From a candidate division WOR-3 bacterium (lineage in GTDB: Bacteria > Hydrothermota > Hydrothermia > UBA1063), in assembly GCA_039803545.1 (NCBI GenBank), contig JBDRYS010000004.1, positions 1 through 64,000 on the forward strand: DNA of 64,000 nt, given 5' to 3'. The notes beneath the pieces are model-generated. The model ran no database searches, was not told where the DNA came from, and saw only the letters and a list, made by a program, of their open reading frames with translations. This document shows, one piece after another, positions 17,647-26,857 of this stretch. Made by a program: the position numbers and the translations under genes. Within the stretch, counting starts at the first letter, position 1; the number at the start of each line of letters is the position of its first letter.

Positions 17647-17781
17647 ATGCTTGTTGAAAAATCTACAATACAACGCGAAGTTACGGTAGATATAACATTT
17701 AATCCCGAAAAAGCTACCAAGGAAGGACAGTGTAGTGGTAGATACATCTGTGGCGGGCTGCAAAGGTGTGGTGTACAATAA
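17647..17781 (+). CDS. Putative RiPP precursor peptide 1 (Cys-rich, 44 aa)
   Basis: A 44-aa peptide with the strongest SD of the region (AAAGGAGGT, 7 nt before the ATG). The N-terminal 28 residues (MLVEKSTIQREVTV...) look like a charged leader. The C-terminal core is CSGRYICGGLQRC with Cys29, Cys35 and Cys41 in C-x5-C-x5-C spacing, ending GVQ. A 100-bp gap containing a 15-bp stem hairpin separates it from a radical SAM/SPASM maturase. Size, cysteines near the end, strong translation and position are those of ranthipeptide or sactipeptide-type precursors, whose cysteines are joined to neighbouring residues by thioether links. The product and its activity are unknown. Confidence 0.75.
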   Translation: MLVEKSTIQREVTVDITFNPEKATKEGQCSGRYICGGLQRCGVQ

Positions 17782-17825
17782 GCCCAAAAGTTATTACCCT
17801 AAAAATATTGCATTAAGCATTAAAT

Positions 17826-17862
17826 CTCATTTCCCTACTCGACTTTAGAGTAGGGAAATGAG
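17826..17862 (+). promoter_or_regulatory. Strong hairpin between precursor 1 and maturase 1
   Basis: CTCATTTCCCTACTC (17826-17840) and GAGTAGGGAAATGAG (17848-17862) form a perfect 15-bp stem with a 7-nt loop. An SD-like AAGGGAAGAGG follows immediately before the maturase ATG. It could stabilise the precursor mRNA or attenuate transcription so that little maturase is made relative to peptide. Confidence 0.75.
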
Positions 17863-17881
17863 GTAGAAAGGGAAGAGGATT

Positions 17882-19234
17882 ATGAACAAATTGAAATGGT
17901 CTCAATGGAATGTGTATTATCCGATTCTGGAAATGAAGAAAGTATTACTTTTGAATACACTGACTTCCGCTGGCATTGTTTTAGAAGAGAGTCAGTTTGA
18001 AACACTAAGAATAGGCAAGTACGACTCTTTACCTGATGATCTTTTTATTAAGTTAATAGAAAATGGTTTTCTTGTTTCTCCTCAAAGAGAAGAAGACGAA
18101 AATGCAACATATTGGAGATTTTATCACAATGTAAAGTACCGTTCAGTGTTTGGGACTTTTCATTTGGTCGTAATTCCGACTTACAAGTGTAATTTTAGTT
18201 GTACGTATTGTTTTGAAGATAATCATAAGTTGGAGAAAACCGAGATAATAATGGATCCCCAGTTGCTCGTAAAGTGGATAGAGAAGTTCTGGAAGTCATA
18301 TAAATATAACGGACTTCACGTAGTATTTTACGGTGGAGAACCTTTGTATCGTAGGGAGCTGTTGGAGGATTACATTGGGCAATTAGAAGAGTGGTGCGGA
18401 AATCGCAGGGTTACGTTTTCTTTTTCAATTATCACAAACGGTTCTATTATAGAGCGTCAATTTCTCCTAAAAATGCTTAAGACCGGATTGAAGGAAATTC
18501 AGGTCACTATTGATGGAATTGAAAATATTCATGATGAAAGGAGGCCTTTTAAACATGGGGGACCGTCTTTCAGTATTGTTTATAGGAATTTGCTTGATAT
18601 TGTCAACTTACCTCTAAAAGTCATAATTAGAACTAATATTGACAGACATAATATTTCAACATTTGAGTTGTTTATTAATAAGTTGAAAACCGATGGGATT
18701 TTCTCAAAAGGAAATGTTTCTTTTATGCCTACATTGGTAGATCCTTCACCCTCAAAAACTGAGTGGTGTGAAAAGTATGTTCCCAAAAATCTAAATGAGA
18801 GGTTGAAAACTTTAGAGATAGTATGGGGAAGTATGGTAAAACTTATAGAGGATCCTAAATTTCTATTACGGTCCCACAAGTTAAGTTTCAGCCTGTGTGA
18901 CGCGAAAGTTGCTGATTCCTTAATTGTTGGTCCTGATGGAAGTATATATACCTGTTATTCTCTTGTTGGAACAGATGTGGGGAAGGTTGGTAATATAGAG
19001 ACTGGTTTTAATTCACGATATGCCAAATTTTTATTCAGTATAGACGAAAAGGTGAGAAGATGTTTAGAGGAAAAGTGTCCATTTGTTCCTATATGTAATG
19101 GAGGATGTTTTTATCAATCTTATATTGAAAGTGGGAATCCTTTTCAAAGGGTTTGTCCGAGAAACTTTTATGAGAAAATTTGGTTGCCTGTAAAGGCGAA
19201 AATATATCAAAAGTTTATGCAAAATTCTGATTGA
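17882..19234 (+). CDS. Radical SAM/SPASM peptide maturase 1
   Basis: A 450-aa radical SAM enzyme with a complete SPASM domain. Residues 1-95 look like the winged-helix peptide-recognition region seen in peptide maturases (VLLLNTLTSAGIVLEE ... LIENGFLVS). The radical SAM motif is CNFSCTYCF (CxxxCxxC, about 104-110), followed by FYGGEPL and TNGS. The SPASM ligands are C-x13-G-x4-C (from SLCDAKV to SIYTC), then CLEEKCPFVPICNGGC and a final Cys (RVCPRN), enough for two auxiliary [4Fe-4S] clusters. Such enzymes install thioether or carbon-carbon links in ribosomal peptides. The 44-aa Cys-rich peptide upstream is the obvious substrate. Confidence 0.9.
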   Translation: MNKLKWSQWNVYYPILEMKKVLLLNTLTSAGIVLEESQFETLRIGKYDSLPDDLFIKLIENGFLVSPQREEDENATYWRFYHNVKYRSVFGTFHLVVIPTYKCNFSCTYCFEDNHKLEKTEIIMDPQLLVKWIEKFWKSYKYNGLHVVFYGGEPLYRRELLEDYIGQLEEWCGNRRVTFSFSIITNGSIIERQFLLKMLKTGLKEIQVTIDGIENIHDERRPFKHGGPSFSIVYRNLLDIVNLPLKVIIRTNIDRHNISTFELFINKLKTDGIFSKGNVSFMPTLVDPSPSKTEWCEKYVPKNLNERLKTLEIVWGSMVKLIEDPKFLLRSHKLSFSLCDAKVADSLIVGPDGSIYTCYSLVGTDVGKVGNIETGFNSRYAKFLFSIDEKVRRCLEEKCPFVPICNGGCFYQSYIESGNPFQRVCPRNFYEKIWLPVKAKIYQKFMQNSD

Positions 19235-19265: not shown

Positions 19266-20204
19266 ATGAGAGACGTCTTACTTGAAATAAGGAATCTCAC
19301 TAAGATTTTCAGAAGTGGGAAGAAGGAGATTATAGCAAACAATAATGTTTCCTTCAATGTTTACGAAGGAGAAATTTTGGGAATATTGGGACCTAACGGT
19401 GCAGGGAAAACTACTTTGATTAAGCAGATTGCAACTCTTTTGATTCCTGATTCGGGGGATATTTTGTATAAAGGGACGTCCATTGTTAAACATCCCGGGG
19501 TAATAAGAGGTCGTTTCTCATTCCTGCAGGAGGGAATGAGAAATGTATACCCGTATCTCACAGCTGAAGCTAATCTGCTTTATTTTGCCTATTTAAACCA
19601 CATCCCTGCAGGAGTTGCAAAAAAGAAAAGTGAAGAATTGTTGAAAAGAATGGGTTTATACGAAGTAAAAGATAACTATGTTTACACTTTCTCATCGGGG
19701 ATGAACAAGAAACTTGCAATTGCTACCTGCCTCATAAATGAACCAGAAATAGTGTTTCTTGATGAGCCATTTTCGGGACTGGATTTGATAGCTTCTATAG
19801 AGCTCATGGATTTTTTGAAATCCTTAGTGACTGAGAGTGGAAAGACCTTTCTCATTGCAGATCACAGACTGGATTTTATTGAGAAAGTTGCGAATAGAGT
19901 ATTATGGATTAAGGATGGGAGTGTGGTTATGGAAGGAAGCACAGTTGAGATGAAAACTATTCGGAGAGAAAAAGAGTTTATTGTTTATTTACAAAATTCC
20001 CTTGAGGCACAAAATGCCTTAAAAGAAAGGGGTGTGGAGTTCCAAGTTCTGTCGGATGAGGTATTGAAGGTTGAAGTCTCGCTAAGTCACAAAGATTACT
20101 TATCTTTCATTATTTCTAACTTTGAAGTATTGAACATAGAGAAAAAAGACCTGGATTTCGAGGCAATTTTTAAGGAGTTGTACTCCCATGCTAAAAACAA
20201 TTGA
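19266..20204 (+). CDS. ABC transporter ATP-binding protein (RiPP locus)
   Basis: A 312-aa ABC ATPase. Walker A is GPNGAGKTTLI, the signature is FSSGMNKKLAIA (a divergent LSGGQ), Walker B is IVFLDEPFSGLD, and the switch His lies in IADHRLDF. The C-terminal 80 residues are an extra mixed domain typical of bacteriocin or antibiotic exporter ATPases (CcmA/COG1131). It overlaps the permease gene by 17 bp and has its own promoter overlapping the end of maturase 1. Exporting the modified peptide, or giving self-protection, is inferred from location between the two maturases. Confidence 0.88.
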   Translation: MRDVLLEIRNLTKIFRSGKKEIIANNNVSFNVYEGEILGILGPNGAGKTTLIKQIATLLIPDSGDILYKGTSIVKHPGVIRGRFSFLQEGMRNVYPYLTAEANLLYFAYLNHIPAGVAKKKSEELLKRMGLYEVKDNYVYTFSSGMNKKLAIATCLINEPEIVFLDEPFSGLDLIASIELMDFLKSLVTESGKTFLIADHRLDFIEKVANRVLWIKDGSVVMEGSTVEMKTIRREKEFIVYLQNSLEAQNALKERGVEFQVLSDEVLKVEVSLSHKDYLSFIISNFEVLNIEKKDLDFEAIFKELYSHAKNN

Positions 20205-20967
20205 GGCGGAAGCGCTTAAGTTCTACTATGATGTAAAGCGATATTTGTTCAATTACTTAGTTGGGATTGTTTCCACTACTATCTTTCTAAGCGGTATTTA
20301 TTATGGACTCAGGTTACTGTATGTCCGCGCAGGAGAAGAGACCGCTTTTGTGGGATTGCTTTTATGGCTCTTTTCTTCCTCTGCAATATCTGGTTTAACC
20401 GATATTTTAGCGGAGGAACGATATCTCGGGACATTGGAAAGGATATCAGTGACAAAATCTCCCTTTATTTCAATAGTTGTTTCAAGACTGATAGTTAATT
20501 TTCTGTTTGGGCTATTACAGTTTTTTATTATCGGTAGTATCCTTTACCTCTTGTTTCGGCCTAATTTAGCACCTTTGTTCCCGTCTTCGAAAGTCTTCTT
20601 TATGCAACTTGTCGTTTCGGTTTTTTTGCTTCTCTCTCTTTATGGTTTTGGGTTCTTTATTGGCTCATTAAGTTTAATTTTTAAACGGGTAGGTGCGTTT
20701 AGCTCTGTGCTGGAATATCTTATTTTATTTTTCTCAGGGATTGTAATACCATGGGAGAAAATTCCGTTTTTCCTGCGAGTTTTTGCTAATTTTTTACCTA
20801 TGACATGGGGAATAAGAACGCTCATTTTAATAAAAATGGGAGTACCTTTCTTGTTTAGCTTTCTTAATTGTATTTTGTACTCACTTGTAGTTGTGTTGGT
20901 TGGCATTATAACCTTTCACTGCGCTGTTATCATTGTCAAAAGGAGAGGGGAATACGCCTTCTTCTGA
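20188..20967 (+). CDS. ABC-2 type permease (RiPP locus)
   Basis: A 259-aa membrane protein with about six hydrophobic segments (YLFNYLVGIVSTTIFLSGIYY, FVGLLLWLFSSSAISGL, LIVNFLFGLLQFFIIGSILYLL, LVVSVFLLLSLYGFGFFIG, VLEYLILFFSGIVIPW, CILYSLVVVLVGIITF). The conserved amphipathic motif of ABC-2 permeases (ILAEERYLGTLERISVTKSP) follows the second segment, and GIVIPWEKIPFFLRVFANFLP is the typical fifth-helix region. It pairs with the ATPase just upstream to form a homodimeric exporter in the inner membrane. Confidence 0.87.
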   Translation: MLKTIEAEALKFYYDVKRYLFNYLVGIVSTTIFLSGIYYGLRLLYVRAGEETAFVGLLLWLFSSSAISGLTDILAEERYLGTLERISVTKSPFISIVVSRLIVNFLFGLLQFFIIGSILYLLFRPNLAPLFPSSKVFFMQLVVSVFLLLSLYGFGFFIGSLSLIFKRVGAFSSVLEYLILFFSGIVIPWEKIPFFLRVFANFLPMTWGIRTLILIKMGVPFLFSFLNCILYSLVVVLVGIITFHCAVIIVKRRGEYAFF

Positions 20968-20981
20968 CAAATAAGATACCG

Positions 20982-21095
20982 TTGCTGTTCGAAGTAATTT
21001 ATATTCTTAGTGAAAGGTCAAGTGTGAAAAGTTTTTCGCAAGCAACGGTAGCCGAAAGGTGCTGTGAGAGAAGTCAGCGGTGTCCAAATGAGTAA
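20982..21095 (+). CDS. Putative RiPP precursor peptide 2 (Cys-rich, 37 or 23 aa)
   Basis: A short frame between the permease and maturase 2, ending at TAA 21093-21095. From TTG 20982 it gives 37 aa beginning MLFE (precursor 1 begins MLVE). From GTG 21024, which has an SD-like AAAGG 6 nt upstream, it gives 23 aa. The end is ATVAERCCERSQRCPNE. Compared with precursor 1 (ATKEGQC...CGGLQRCGVQ) it keeps AT-x4-C and C-x3-QRC, lacking only the five residues between the first two cysteines. It is followed by a 13-bp hairpin and then maturase 2, the same layout as copy 1. Function rests on this parallel alone; the start is uncertain. Confidence 0.5.
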   Translation: MLFEVIYILSERSSVKSFSQATVAERCCERSQRCPNE

Positions 21096-21100
21096 AGTTC

Positions 21101-21131
21101 TGAGGGGCGTCGCTGAAGGCGACGCCCCTCA
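21101..21131 (+). promoter_or_regulatory. Strong GC-rich hairpin between precursor 2 and maturase 2
   Basis: TGAGGGGCGTCGC (21101-21113) and GCGACGCCCCTCA (21119-21131) form a 13-bp stem with a 5-nt loop. The SD AAAGGAG and a T-run follow, then the maturase ATG at 21149. It corresponds in place to the hairpin before maturase 1 but shares no sequence with it, so the structure rather than the sequence seems to matter. Confidence 0.75.
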
Positions 21132-21148
21132 CAAAGGAGTTTTTTCAT

Positions 21149-22366
21149 ATGGAGAGATCATATAAGGTTTCAAAATACAACCTGTATAGGTACAATTACG
21201 TTTATAACCTGAGACAAAGGAGTCTCTTAAGGGTAAATGATTCAATTCTCAAAGCTCTTCAGAATAATGAGCTTGAAAATATTCCACCACAAGTAATGAA
21301 GCTGCTTCTTACTGCAGGAATTGTAGTCGAAGGGATTGATGAAGTGAAGCTTCTGGAATTCTGGCTTTCACTTAAGAGCTTTAATACCAACTCTTTGAGT
21401 GTTGCCTATATCCCCAACTACCATTGTAACTTCAGATGTACTTATTGTTATGCTCAATCAGTGCGTGATATTAAGAGACAGGAAAGTGAGAATGTTAATG
21501 CGGACTTTCTGAAATGGATTGAGAATCTTTTTGCTCTCGCTGAACCCCGGAGTTTTGAAATTACATTTCATGGAGGAGAACCTTTACTTTCAAAACAGGA
21601 AATTTTGTTTCTTTGCAAAAGTATTACTGAACTCTGTCAAAAACATAGCGTAAGGTTAAAGGATATTTCCTTCGTTACCAATGGGAGCTTGCTTGATAAG
21701 GGTTTTGTTGAAGAAGTTTTACGTCTTGGAATTACCTGTAGAGCCTTGGTGACTCTTGATGGCACTGAGAATATTCACAATAGACGCAGGTTTGATATTA
21801 AAGGTAAGGGGACTTTTTCGCTAATAGTTGATAATGTGATTCTGGCCCTCAATCTCGGGATGTTTGTAACAGTAGGTTTTAATTACGACAGGCAAAACTA
21901 TACTGATATCCCTTACTTTTTAGATTTTCTTGTTGAAAAAGGGTTTGATAAGAGACCCAACTTTCAGTTGATATTTGGGGCAGTGAGAAAGGGCTTAGAC
22001 CAGGAGAGCGTAGAACATTTCAAAAAATTCGAAATGGGTCAGGTGGAATCAGCAAAAGTCTTAATGTGGGCTTATGGCTCGATTTATGAACCTCTTGAGC
22101 TCCTAATGCAGAGGTCTGCAGACTTTGTTCTACCGTATCATTGGGAAAAGTATCCTCTTTGTAAAGAATGTGTGTATCTGCCGGTTTGCCTTGGGGGTTG
22201 CTTTGAGCAGGCTTTTATAAGGAAAAAGAAGTTCTACTGTAGAAAACGATACTTTGAGAATCTTCTCCCGGATCTCATTGATCTCACAGTAAGGCTCTAT
22301 GGAGAGCATCCGAAGCTGACTCAAGGTCAGAAACTTGAACATATTTTTGGAATTGAGCAAATTTAA
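21149..22366 (+). CDS. Radical SAM peptide maturase 2 with reduced SPASM domain
   Basis: A 405-aa paralogue of maturase 1. The N-terminal 85 residues are winged-helix-like (LLRVNDSILKALQNNEL ... LLLTAGIVVEG). The radical SAM motif is CNFRCTYCY (about 93-99), with FHGGEPLL and TNGS. The C-terminal cysteines are LCKECVYLPVCLGGCF (C-x2-C-x5-C-x3-C) and a last Cys in FYCRKR. The first SPASM half, C-x9-15-G-x4-C, is absent: residues about 280-330 hold no cysteine. It may therefore carry one fully ligated auxiliary cluster instead of two. SD AAAGGAG lies before the ATG. The probable substrate is the short peptide just upstream. Confidence 0.88.
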   Translation: MERSYKVSKYNLYRYNYVYNLRQRSLLRVNDSILKALQNNELENIPPQVMKLLLTAGIVVEGIDEVKLLEFWLSLKSFNTNSLSVAYIPNYHCNFRCTYCYAQSVRDIKRQESENVNADFLKWIENLFALAEPRSFEITFHGGEPLLSKQEILFLCKSITELCQKHSVRLKDISFVTNGSLLDKGFVEEVLRLGITCRALVTLDGTENIHNRRRFDIKGKGTFSLIVDNVILALNLGMFVTVGFNYDRQNYTDIPYFLDFLVEKGFDKRPNFQLIFGAVRKGLDQESVEHFKKFEMGQVESAKVLMWAYGSIYEPLELLMQRSADFVLPYHWEKYPLCKECVYLPVCLGGCFEQAFIRKKKFYCRKRYFENLLPDLIDLTVRLYGEHPKLTQGQKLEHIFGIEQI

Positions 22367-22416
22367 AATGAATGCGAGTCAAACAGGCTTTAAAATCTTA
22401 CTTTTAATGTGAGGTT

Positions 22417-23409
22417 ATGAGTAGTCCAATTGTTATAAATAGCCTGAGAAAAGTATATAAAAGACACCTGAGAGAGCCAGGTATAAAGGGTATATTGCGG
22501 GGTATTTTTGCTCGTGAATACATAGAAGTTGAAGCACTAAGGGGAATATCCTTTGAGATTTCCTCGGGTGAATTTGTGGGATATATAGGTCCCAATGGTG
22601 CTGGCAAAACTACCACTATGAAGATCCTCTCCGGAATTTTGTACCCTACCAGCGGAGAGGTTCGGGTTCTCGGATACTTTCCACCTGATAGGAACCCCGA
22701 TTTTTTGAAAAGAATTTCCTTTATTATGGGGCAAAAAACCCAGCTCTGGTGGGATTTGCCTGCTATGGATTCCTTTATTTTACTTAAAAAGATTTACGAA
22801 ATTCCCGATCGTGAATTCTTTAAGGAGGTTAACAACTTAGCGGAGCTGTTAAATGTTGCGGACCTTTTGAAAGTGCCGTTACGGAAGCTTTCTCTTGGCG
22901 AGAGGATGAAAATGGAGCTCATAGCTGGCTTGCTTCATGGGCCTGAAGTGATATTCCTTGATGAGCCTACCATTGGCCTTGACTTTATGTCACAGGAAAA
23001 GATTCATGAGTTTTTGAAATATTATAATGAGGAGAAGGGAAAGACAATTATTTTAACCAGCCATTATGTGCGGGACATCGAAAAACTTTGCCGGCGCATA
23101 ATTTTTATCCACAAGGGCCAGGTTTACTATGACGGAGATAGAGAATCTTTTATTGAGAAATTTACAAAAAAACGCGTAATAGTGGCAAAGTTCAGAAACA
23201 GGCCACCTGACTCTCTCAATAGGTTAGGAAAGGTAATGGGAGTAGAGGATAACGAGGTTCGCCTTGAGGTTGCAAAGGAGAAGTTGCAGGATGTCCTTCA
23301 AGAAATTCTAAAGAATGCAGAAATTGAGGGCCTCTTTGTGGAAGAATTGTCCTTAGAGGATGCCTTAAAAGAAGTTTTTGAGGGTATTCAAAATGAAAAG
23401 GCTCAGTAA
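22417..23409 (+). CDS. ABC transporter ATP-binding protein, COG4586 type
   Basis: A 330-aa ATPase of the uncharacterised COG4586 group. It has the long N-terminal segment before Walker A (RKVYKRHLREPGIKGILRGIF...), Walker A GPNGAGKTTTMKIL, the family's FIMGQKTQLWWDLPAMDSF, signature LSLGERMKMELIAGL, Walker B VIFLDEPTIGLD and SHYVRDIEKLCRRIIF. COG4586 proteins always pair with COG4587 and COG3694 permeases, which follow here. Substrate unknown; export of lipid or polymer is assumed. It starts 51 nt after maturase 2 on the same strand, so it may share the RiPP transcript. A full second set of these three genes lies at 38.0-40.6 kb. Confidence 0.88.
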   Translation: MSSPIVINSLRKVYKRHLREPGIKGILRGIFAREYIEVEALRGISFEISSGEFVGYIGPNGAGKTTTMKILSGILYPTSGEVRVLGYFPPDRNPDFLKRISFIMGQKTQLWWDLPAMDSFILLKKIYEIPDREFFKEVNNLAELLNVADLLKVPLRKLSLGERMKMELIAGLLHGPEVIFLDEPTIGLDFMSQEKIHEFLKYYNEEKGKTIILTSHYVRDIEKLCRRIIFIHKGQVYYDGDRESFIEKFTKKRVIVAKFRNRPPDSLNRLGKVMGVEDNEVRLEVAKEKLQDVLQEILKNAEIEGLFVEELSLEDALKEVFEGIQNEKAQ

Positions 23410-24203
23410 GTACTTGCAGGTTGTTGTAAACACTATTGCAGAAAGTTCAGAATTCCGGTTTAATCACCTTTTGAGTTTTCTTGTAATTGCCCTTCCGCTG
23501 GTTTTTACTATGCTTTTGTGGAGGAAGGTGCTTGGAAAGGGCGGGCAGATTGGCGTTTTTGACCTTCAAAGAATAATCACTTACTACTTTCTCGTGGTGC
23601 TTTTTCAGGATATAACCTATCCTGGTCCCTTTTGGGAGATTATTGATCACATCAGGGATGGAGGACTTAACGTTTTTTTTGAGCAAGCCCATTAGTTATC
23701 CTGGGTATATTTTTGCCCTTAAACTGGGCATAAATATCCCGTATTTATTTTTATCCTTCCTGACGCTCTTTTTGCTCGGCATCTTTGCGGGTTTTAACAA
23801 ATACTTGGTTTTTCCGCCAAATATATTTTATTTTGTTCTTTTTTTAATTTCCTTTTTCTTAGCCGTAGTTTTGGGATTTACACTCTCTTTTATTTTCAGC
23901 GCTCTCACCTTTTGGCTTGAGGAGGGCAGAGGAATTGAGGTTTTCTTAGAGTTCTTAATTAGCCTCACCAGCGGAGTTATATTGCCCGTATCCCTTTATC
24001 CAGGGTTCCTAAAGACTTTATGTAATTTGTTGCCTTTTAGGTACATTTTGAACTTTCCCGTTGAAGTCTACTTAGGTTTAGCAAAGGGCAGGGCACTTTA
24101 CCTTGGCTTTTTGGCTCAGGCGGGCTGGACATTGATTGTCTTGCTTCTTTTGAAATTTATATGGAACGAAGGGCTCAAGAGATATGAGGCGGTGGGCGCT
24201 TAG
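23393..24203 (+). CDS. ABC permease, COG4587 type, frameshifted at a T8 run
   Basis: Six-helix ABC-2 like permease split by one frameshift. The first frame (ATG 23393, overlapping the ATPase end) runs to TAG 23693-23695. The continuation (LSKPISYPGYIFALKLG... to 24203) is in the +1 frame. The join is at eight T residues, 23673-23680; seven would give NVFLSKPISYPG, matching the paralogue at 38804-39577 (IIHFLSKPVNFLKSW). The full product would be about 270 aa. Both halves keep good codon use and all expected helices, so this is an error, a slippage site or a very recent mutation. Confidence 0.8.
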
Positions 24204-24996
24204 GGTAAATTATTATTTTTCCTTGTGGCGAGAATTCTTTTTGATGCAGATAAAAAGAGAAACTATTTTCAAGGGCAGTTTTCTCCTCGAGATTGTATCT
24301 TATTTAATGTGGTTTGTTTTCAACGTCTTCTTTTTCGGCATCATTCTCAGCTATAGGCGGTCTATTGGGGGATGGGGGCGTTATGAAGTTCTGACGCTGA
24401 TTTCTATTAACCAGTTGATTGTAGCCCTTTACGATACCTTCTTAGGCCCAAATTTGAGGAGGTTTCAGACCTATATTGAGAGGGGAGATTTTGACCTCTT
24501 TATTATTAAGCCCCTGGATTTGCAATTTTTTGTTTCTACAAGATTTATGGATTTAAAGCCTCTTTTTTCTACTCCTTTGGCCCTTCTTACATTAACCTAT
24601 GCCCTTTATAAGCGGGGCAGTTTGCCTGGATTAATGGAATTTACCCTGTTTTTAACTTGTTTTGTAATGGGTGTTCTAATCCGTTACGGCTTAGGTTTTT
24701 TTGTGATGTCTCTCTCCTTTTATTTCGTTAGGGTTTCTGCTCTTCATTCCCTCCAGAGAGAATTGCTCTCCTACGCTGGTTATCCTTACACCATTTATGA
24801 GAAGTTTGCAAAGGTGTTTTTCACCTTCATAGTGCCTGTTGCCTTAATTGCCAATTTGCCAGCGCAGGCCCTTTTGAAGCAGCCAGTAAAGCCAGAATTG
24901 GTTTTATACAGCTTTTTCTTTGCTTTAGTGATCCTCGTTTTTTCAAGACACTTCTTTTACCGCTCAATAAGGAGGTACGAAAGTGCTAGTAGCTAA
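24184..24996 (+). CDS. ABC permease, COG3694 type
   Basis: A 270-aa permease with about six hydrophobic segments and the family's N-terminal FLMQIKRETIFKGSFLLEIVSYLMWFVFNVFFF and central FQTYIERGDFDLFIIKPLDLQFFVSTRF. It overlaps the preceding permease by 20 bp. With the COG4586 ATPase and COG4587 permease it completes a heteromeric exporter of unknown substrate in the inner membrane. Its 3' end overlaps the outer-membrane barrel gene. Confidence 0.85.
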   Translation: MRRWALRVNYYFSLWREFFLMQIKRETIFKGSFLLEIVSYLMWFVFNVFFFGIILSYRRSIGGWGRYEVLTLISINQLIVALYDTFLGPNLRRFQTYIERGDFDLFIIKPLDLQFFVSTRFMDLKPLFSTPLALLTLTYALYKRGSLPGLMEFTLFLTCFVMGVLIRYGLGFFVMSLSFYFVRVSALHSLQRELLSYAGYPYTIYEKFAKVFFTFIVPVALIANLPAQALLKQPVKPELVLYSFFFALVILVFSRHFFYRSIRRYESASS

Positions 24997-26857
24997 GATT
25001 TTTGGATATTTAATTCTCTCTCAGATGGTGAAAATCTTGCCTTATGAAAAGGAGTTTGTCTTTTATCCTTTTCGTGGATTGAGGCCGACTTATGAAGCCA
25101 ATATTGAAGTTTGTGTTTATGAAGATTCCTTTTCTGTAGAGTTTCAAACACCATCTTATGTTGTGGTTCGGAAGAGTTTAACGCGGGATAGTTTTGACCC
25201 GAATAGCGAGGCCTGTTTTTATCTCCTGGTAAAAACTCGTTCAAATACGGCAGAAGGTTACCTTTTTGCGGTTAATGCCAACAATATTCAGCTTGATGGG
25301 CTTGTCCACAGTTATGATAACATTGTTACATCCTGGGATGAAGTGTGGAGTTCAAAGGTTGAGGTCAAGGATTCCTTGTGGAATGTGATAATTACAATTC
25401 CCTTTAAGGTATTCCGTGAAAATTTTGATTCCCTTTATTTTTACTTCACCTGGACTGTTTTTACGCCAAGTGGAATAGAGATTGTGAGTTCATATCCAAT
25501 ACCTGAGGGATACAGCCGATTTGACCTCAGATTTGCTGACTTTTCTTTTCCTGCTTTGAAGAAAAGGTTTGACAGACTCTTTTCCTTTACGCCATACCTT
25601 GCAGTGATTCGAGAAAATTCTATGACTACAAAGATTGGAGCAGAGTTGAAGCTGGTAAAGGGCGATATGACCCTCCAATCGACTATAAACCCGGAGAGAT
25701 ATTCCATTGAAGGAGACATAGACCAGTTTAACTTAAAAAGAAGGCGGAGTATAAAGCTTGAAGAAAAGAGGCCCTTCTTCACAGAGGGACTTGACCTCTG
25801 GAAAATGCCCTTTGAGGCCTTTTATTCGAGGAGTATCGGTGACTTTATTGGTGGGGTAAAGCTGGGATTGAATAAAAATACCTTTAGGTTTCAAGGCCTT
25901 ATTTTGTACGAGGATTCGGTGATTTCACATTACAGTCCATCTCGTATTTTAACCGCTTCTGTTGCGAGTTATAGGCCCTCAAAGGCCTTTGAGAACAGGT
26001 TGTTCTTTATAACAAAGGGGGATACCGTAGGTGCGGGAGTTAATGCCAATTTCTTTTTGCCTTATGGCTTTAAAGTAAAGACACAATTCACAAGGGCTCA
26101 GGGTAATGATTTTTACTTGGAAGTCAAAAGGTTTTCTAAAACGGGTTTCTGGGTCTCCTCCGGTGCCGAGAGGCTGGATGCTAATTTTAATTTACCAACG
26201 GCCTATATTTCTTACTTTGAAAATACCATTTCCTATTGGATATTCTCAGGTATAACAAAAACCTTTGAAAGGAAATATTTTACTGAAGCGAGTCTCTCCT
26301 TCGGCTATACCTATTCCAACTTTTTAGATGGAGCGCCTTTTGAAAGGTTTGGGAATGTTTATGCGACGGTATATCCCATAAGCAGTGTTGAACTTACCTT
26401 TGGAGTGGAACCGATGAAGACCTTTTACGAGGGGGTATATTACAACAACATCAATTATATAATCTCGACTGCCTTAGGAGTTTCAAAACCTTCTACACTC
26501 TATTTTGAGTACATCTGGGGCGAAAACTACGGGAACAATCTAAGGTTTTTGAACCTGTGTGGCAACTTTTCTATTTCTGGGAAGCTTTACTGCGAAGGGG
26601 GTGCAGGTTTTGTTGAGGAAGGGCCATCAGAGGACCAGAGAGTTTATTTAATGGGGTCTTATTCTCCCATGGAGAGGGTTTATTTGCGTTTCTTTTCCCA
26701 GAGGAGCACTCTGAGTGATAGAACGGACTTAAATTTGATGTTCCAGTATGAATTCTTTGCAGGCAGCAACATTTTTGTGGTTATTAACAGAACGGTAAGA
26801 AGCGGGCAGGTTTCTACCCCTGTTATGTTGAAAGTGGCCTACGAGCTGAGATTTTAG
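24983..26857 (+). CDS. DUF5916-like outer-membrane beta-barrel protein
   Basis: A 624-aa protein. A hydrophobic N-terminus may serve as signal peptide. Residues about 30-180 look like a carbohydrate-binding family 9-type sandwich (EANIEVCVYEDSFSVEFQ ... WNVIITIPFKVFRENFDSLYFYFTW). The DUF5916 hallmark follows: TINPERYSIEGDIDQFNL, then KLEEKRPFFTEGLDLW. The rest is a long run of alternating beta strands ending in VAYELRF, as expected for an outer-membrane barrel with a C-terminal Phe. An SD (AAGGAGGT) precedes the GTG. Coupling to the COG4586 exporter genes suggests a trans-envelope partnership, for instance delivery of the same cargo to the cell surface. Confidence 0.8.
   Translation: MLVAKIFGYLILSQMVKILPYEKEFVFYPFRGLRPTYEANIEVCVYEDSFSVEFQTPSYVVVRKSLTRDSFDPNSEACFYLLVKTRSNTAEGYLFAVNANNIQLDGLVHSYDNIVTSWDEVWSSKVEVKDSLWNVIITIPFKVFRENFDSLYFYFTWTVFTPSGIEIVSSYPIPEGYSRFDLRFADFSFPALKKRFDRLFSFTPYLAVIRENSMTTKIGAELKLVKGDMTLQSTINPERYSIEGDIDQFNLKRRRSIKLEEKRPFFTEGLDLWKMPFEAFYSRSIGDFIGGVKLGLNKNTFRFQGLILYEDSVISHYSPSRILTASVASYRPSKAFENRLFFITKGDTVGAGVNANFFLPYGFKVKTQFTRAQGNDFYLEVKRFSKTGFWVSSGAERLDANFNLPTAYISYFENTISYWIFSGITKTFERKYFTEASLSFGYTYSNFLDGAPFERFGNVYATVYPISSVELTFGVEPMKTFYEGVYYNNINYIISTALGVSKPSTLYFEYIWGENYGNNLRFLNLCGNFSISGKLYCEGGAGFVEEGPSEDQRVYLMGSYSPMERVYLRFFSQRSTLSDRTDLNLMFQYEFFAGSNIFVVINRTVRSGQVSTPVMLKVAYELRF

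Follow-up and report, generated by a model that had tools for sequence, protein, structure and literature searches.

Radical-SAM RiPP systems of this kind share a common logic: the leader of the precursor sits on an RRE, the radical-SAM enzyme acts on the core, auxiliary clusters are needed, and an ABC pair exports the product. RRE domains bind leaders (PMC6231123), and in published work catalysis depends on the SPASM auxiliary clusters, while RumMC2 loses its modifying activity once the RRE is removed (PMC8188230). The ranthipeptide/SCIFF systems (CteA/CteB and PapA/PapB) have a short Cys-containing precursor followed by a maturase with RRE, radical-SAM, and SPASM domains, and the sactipeptide systems (RumMC, SkfB, and thuricin CD) follow the same three-domain logic of RRE, radical SAM, and SPASM/Twitch. 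No described RiPP from the WOR-3 phylum was found in a literature search for mentions of WOR-3 with RiPP.

Two systems of this general kind lie side by side in the window (the whole 64,000-nucleotide stretch of a candidate division WOR-3 genome analyzed here; Table 1). The best PDB matches of the maturase 2 model are structures of CteB (5why/5wgg, E 1.7e-11), and the PapB, CefB, Clo7bot, and geopeptide maturase models match the WOR-3 maturases at 1e-23 to 1e-54, although all scores are far below the NCBIfam cut-offs. Geopeptide TIGR04280 is the top-scoring NCBIfam model for both maturases, but its scores, 155 bits for the window copy of maturase 2 and 185 bits for maturase 1, are less than half of the 400-bit cut-off; the sactipeptide match is weak (RumMC, 44 bits against a cut-off of 720), with acceptor residues not identifiable. 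Unlike ranthipeptides/SCIFFs, the WOR-3 precursors lack the CX3D/E repeat and the six cysteines in 45 residues; the Cx3[DE] spacing is not conserved in seven aligned precursors, which instead have C-x5-C-x5-C (type 1) or C-x6-C-P-[ND] (type 2). Unlike geopeptides, they match no NCBIfam or Pfam peptide family, scans of precursors 1 and 2 returning nothing usable. Both systems appear to represent a new CteB/PapB-like radical-SAM/SPASM family of putative RiPP type.

RESULTS

System 1 (precursor 1, maturase 1, and its ABC pair) is intact in the window genome. In the gap between exporter A and maturase 2, the initial annotation described a hidden second precursor peptide encoded at 20982-21095. We conclude that this short frame very probably preserves the 3' end of a once genuine RiPP precursor gene of the radical-SAM type, and that system 2 is most likely dead in the window genome.

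TABLE 1 Features of the two peptide systems and of related cassettes (window positions unless a locus is named)
Feature	Position	Strand	Details
Precursor 1	17647..17781	+	44 aa, MLVEKSTIQREVTVDITFNPEKATKEGQCSGRYICGGLQRCGVQ; AAGGAGG site; homologues in G003, G130
Hairpin, precursor 1/maturase 1	17824..17864	+	z -6.2
Maturase 1, radical SAM/SPASM	17882..19234	+	450 aa; SPASM cysteine motifs present
ABC exporter A, ATPase	19266..20204	+	
ABC exporter A, ABC-2 permease	20188..20967	+	
Residual ORF	21024..21095	+	23 aa, VKSFSQATVAERCCERSQRCPNE; GTG start, AAAGG 6 bases upstream
143-bp deletion junction	21027..21045	+	anchor distances, alignment
Precursor 2 remnant	21042..21095	+	core ATVAERCCERSQRCPNE and stop; protein identical to intact G001, G002 precursors
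Strong hairpin, precursor 2/maturase 2	21102..21130	+	-30.1 kcal/mol, z -5.7
Maturase 2, radical SAM/SPASM peptide maturase	21149..22366	+	405 aa; internal in-frame 147-bp deletion
147-bp deletion junction in maturase 2	22076..22080	+	loses CX13GX4C of SPASM domain
ABC exporter B, ATPase (system 2 cassette)	22417..23409	+	same gene order in G001, G002, G005
ABC exporter B, permease 1	23393..24203	+	+1 frameshift at T8 run, ~23673-23680
ABC exporter B, permease 2	24184..24996	+	
DUF5916-like protein	24983..26857	+	624 aa; last cassette gene
DUF5916-like cassette end	L025:8721-10601		
DUF5916-like cassette end, third system	L026:2832-4790		
ABC, third system	L026:4802-6418		
Maturase, third system	L026:6405-7709		
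DUF5916-like cassette end	L027:4105-6108		
DUF5916-like cassette end	L028:3154-5217		

The frame closing at 21095 ends with ATVAERCCERSQRCPNE and a stop, and the longer tail ...SFSQATVAERCCERSQRCPNE is likewise read there. It has no ATG; translation could begin at TTG 20868, TTG 20982, or GTG 21024, of which GTG 21024 alone is preceded by a ribosome-site-like AAAGG at a suitable distance. The segment from 20982 to ~21030 is not genuinely coding: TTG 20982 lacks a Shine-Dalgarno, and in the alignment with the closest relative this stretch is interrupted by a 1-bp indel and a stop. A match of the long frame to ZPR1 (0.015, below cut-off) falls in this segment and is ascribed to chance. The genuine coding part of the proposed peptide is confined to 21042-21095, the C-terminal 17 codons (21042-21092) and the stop, which differs from the intact G001 gene by one synonymous change. 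The premise that gene callers overlook so short an ORF is sound, and the second precursor sequence would be missed.

In two WOR-3 genomes of the same genus, G001 (MAG UBA5631, the nearest genome with the locus) and G002, the gene immediately upstream of maturase 2 encodes an intact precursor of 40 aa. The G001 peptide is MNPIKITDWVEVISIGVPMSNATATVAERCCERSQRCPNE, preceded by AAAGGAGG-TAATT-ATG, a Shine-Dalgarno and start codon, and that of G002 is MSHINIKDWVEIICIGIPISNATATVAERCCERSQRCPNE; both were recovered at the same place as the window remnant (E 4e-24 and 7e-19, respectively). The same search of the window's own genome returned one truncated copy (E 3e-7, residues 20-40 only) and no second copy elsewhere in that genome, and among 60 relatives there was no match outside the genus. 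Over the 20-residue core, G001 and G002 differ by eight synonymous and no nonsynonymous changes, and none of 20,000 random sets of eight substitutions left the core protein unchanged; the leader varies, with 8 nonsynonymous and 10 synonymous changes (NG86 count). The synonymous-only changes therefore show that the precursor 2 core is selected coding sequence in this lineage. The expectation that related genomes would conserve the frame is borne out, and the random sequence named as the alternative is not what they carry. A second precursor tied to maturase 2 thus holds for the lineage, as seen in G001 and G002, but not as a working gene in the window genome, where the start, Shine-Dalgarno, and leader are deleted and maturase 2 is shorter by 49 aa.

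Fixed anchors lie 160 bp apart in G001 but only 17 bp in the window, and the missing 143 bp cover the likely promoter region, the Shine-Dalgarno, the ATG, and nearly the whole leader, leaving no start site or leader upstream of the core. In maturase 2, anchors 148 bp apart in G001 are separated by 1 bp, an in-frame loss of 147 bp from a protein of 454 to 459 aa in G001, G002, and G005. With the 49 absent residues (G310-I358, G001 numbering) went C328 and C347, the pair of cysteines that opens the SPASM motif (its CX13GX4C half) and is invariant in G001, G002, and G005; the window copy alone lacks CX13GX4C, which the other four type-2 maturases all have. The full CX9-15GX4C ... CX2CX5CX3C ... 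C pattern is complete in G001, G005, and G085. In G002, Tyr replaces the fourth cysteine of CX2CX5CX3C, a change that need not be fatal, since the Aux I cluster of CteB has an open site (PMC6231123).

Other parts of the window maturase 2 are retained. The CX3CX2C radical-SAM motif is present (CNFRCTYC, as in G001), Pfam Radical_SAM matches at 3e-14, and the gene is still an open frame with a dN/dS of 0.16 relative to G001, which speaks against its being a relic. Synonymous to nonsynonymous changes are 11:7 on the window branch versus 17:2 on the G001 branch (Fisher p 0.06), so that decay is recent or the relaxation only suggestive. In an AlphaFold model of the intact protein, residues 1-75 form three strands followed by three helices, the order found in RRE domains, at moderate confidence. 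The pLDDT was 64 for the intact protein and 60 for the window copy, and the C-terminal part, poor in both, was left out of arguments on SPASM folding. Scanning genome contigs with the maturase alignment returned only G001, G005, and one distant match. Permease 1 of exporter B, frameshifted in the window, is unbroken (274 aa) in G001 and G002.

Seven precursors found by position upstream of maturases were compared (window precursor 1 and those of G003, G130, G001, G002, G005, and G085), with G005 and G085 located upstream of maturase homologues where the sequence search gave no match. Type 1 (window, G003, and G130) has cysteines at -12, -6, and 0 from the last, within C-x5-C-x5-C and ...CGGxQRC; type 2 (G001, G002, G005, and G085) has cysteines at -7 and 0, within C-[CN]-x4-R-C-P-[ND]. 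The maturase tree recovers the same two groups with support of 100/100 and 98/95 (the latter for type 2), and the type-2 precursors of G005 and G085 sit upstream of their type-2 maturases.

The initial annotation had aligned precursor 1 and the window peptide on AT-x4-C, a C-x5-C pair, and QRC. They share seven identities with one gap, a score reached by 8 of 2,000 shuffles, and this likeness is probably not pure chance; AT and AT-x4-C, however, are not conserved among homologues of either type, and common to all seven precursors is only C..[QH]RC near the C terminus, with a short tail. The RC pair found throughout brings to mind an enteropeptin-type Cys-Arg linkage, which we take to be a lead only. 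The proposal that loss of five residues left the two adjacent cysteines is contradicted by the outgroup type-2 peptides of G005 and G085, in which the second of these positions (-6) is Asn (C-N-x5-C) and there is no middle cysteine. A cysteine gained by substitution within the genus would explain the pair with less change, and is preferred because of this outgroup Asn.

The hairpin between precursor 2 and maturase 2 is present in the window, G001, and G002, and base changes in G002 preserve its pairing. System 1 has a hairpin at the corresponding position with a different sequence.

The surrounding locus bears a signature of exchange. Window positions 19.3 to 22.6 kb are 90-95% identical to G001 by sliding identity (87% at the left edge), whereas the flanking genes are only ~60-75% identical to G001 and nearer to G002, and synonymous distance is 0.21-0.35 in maturase 2 and the exporter A ATPase versus saturated in the flanking genes. 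This combination indicates that the cassette was exchanged between species. From 22.6 to ~25 kb the closest pair is instead G001 and G002, and the window's closeness to G001 returns at 25.6-26.8 kb. Losses are reciprocal. G001 has an intact system 2 and has lost system 1 except for a short, stop-riddled scrap of maturase 1 (L023:6970-7310) that matches the window at 72% identity along 131 bp, and G002 has lost system 1, with exporter A present only as a pseudogene and its DUF5916 gene split. A different part of the locus thus survives in each species. Overall, window positions 19300-26850 form a mosaic in which blocks nearest to G001 are interspersed with others in which G001 and G002 are the more similar pair.

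DISCUSSION

In the intact state of the sister genomes, the Shine-Dalgarno and ATG of precursor 2 would drive synthesis of a 40-aa precursor, whose ~20-residue hydrophobic leader would dock on the RRE-like domain at the N terminus of maturase 2. With its radical-SAM site and SPASM auxiliary clusters, the enzyme would form cysteine cross-links within the core ATATVAERCCERSQRCPNE, and the ABC exporter would carry the product out; as to function, the likeliest guess, and no more than that, is that the peptide is secreted to act on competitors or on kin. The conserved hairpin that follows the stop codon of the precursor probably controls how much precursor is made relative to maturase, plausibly allowing an excess of precursor. 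In the window genome, loss of system 2 function is most likely. We infer that no product is made because the 143-bp loss removed the leader, start, and ribosome site, the 147-bp in-frame loss removed SPASM cysteines, and the permease is frameshifted, and because the clusters and RRE are needed in published work.

A functional, unannotated second precursor, started at TTG 20982 or GTG 21024 and modified by maturase 2 to a different ring pattern, is highly improbable. In its favor, the core is complete and under selection in relatives and is followed by the hairpin and the maturase frame, and the GTG with its AAAGG leaves a translatable 23-aa ORF, a point against regarding the frame as a relic. 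We consider this GTG incidental, however, because the frame read from its G001 counterpart stops after eight codons; moreover, the leader is missing, there is no in-frame conservation upstream of 21030, two invariant cysteines of the SPASM domain are gone from maturase 2, and the exporter permease carries a frameshift. It is also very unlikely that system 2 is truly intact and that the two ~145-bp gaps and the T8 indel are assembly or sequencing artefacts or minority variants. One lesion is a homopolymer indel, and this frameshift could by itself be a sequencing error; the two deletions are also of similar size. Junction microhomology, however, is at most a base or two by eye, neighboring genes are intact, and G001 and G002 each carry other, independent lesions at the same locus, and decay there is therefore a general pattern. 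The locus illustrates how a relic can pass for a hidden gene when a single genome is read.

The interest of the locus rests on the family and its reciprocal decay rather than on a hidden gene. Uncultured WOR-3 bacteria have two defined precursor families with cognate maturases, type 1 (C-x5-C-x5-C with GGxQRC) and type 2 (C-[CN]-x4-R-C-P-[ND]), and sister species at different stages of losing either system, together with cassette exchange, provide a natural experiment in how peptide systems turn over. Its mosaic ancestry gives the locus the look of a recombination hot spot. We tentatively raise the possibility, itself doubtful, that it serves as a turnover site, with WOR-3 relatives exchanging two related, side-by-side peptide systems and inactivating now one, now the other, so that a different one is kept in each species; if true, this would resemble the allele turnover of antagonism or recognition peptides.

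A DUF5916-like protein of ~620-690 aa, beside an ABC exporter, repeatedly closes RiPP cassettes of this gene order (Table 1), and in WOR-3 it may have a role in exporting or receiving peptides or in immunity to them. The genome of the window also contains a third radical-SAM system (L026; G000 contig C3, 2000-15000), with two tandem precursors, MRYINREDTLQKSIIDFLCGCFLTRCDERAPKNQEQQ and MKVINNNVQNSNLIIPIIPPICGCFLVQCRKDEV, which share CGCFLxxC and both occur in G002 (L030) too. Another precursor type, ending ...LHKDNCCRQKANIK and ...LHKDGCCHAYRVSK, precedes related maturases in L035 (G005 C22) and L033 (G006 C4), and in L090 (G061 C20) three Cys-rich precursors lie in tandem upstream of 2144, two of which share the leader MDFILKPLEMLDN.
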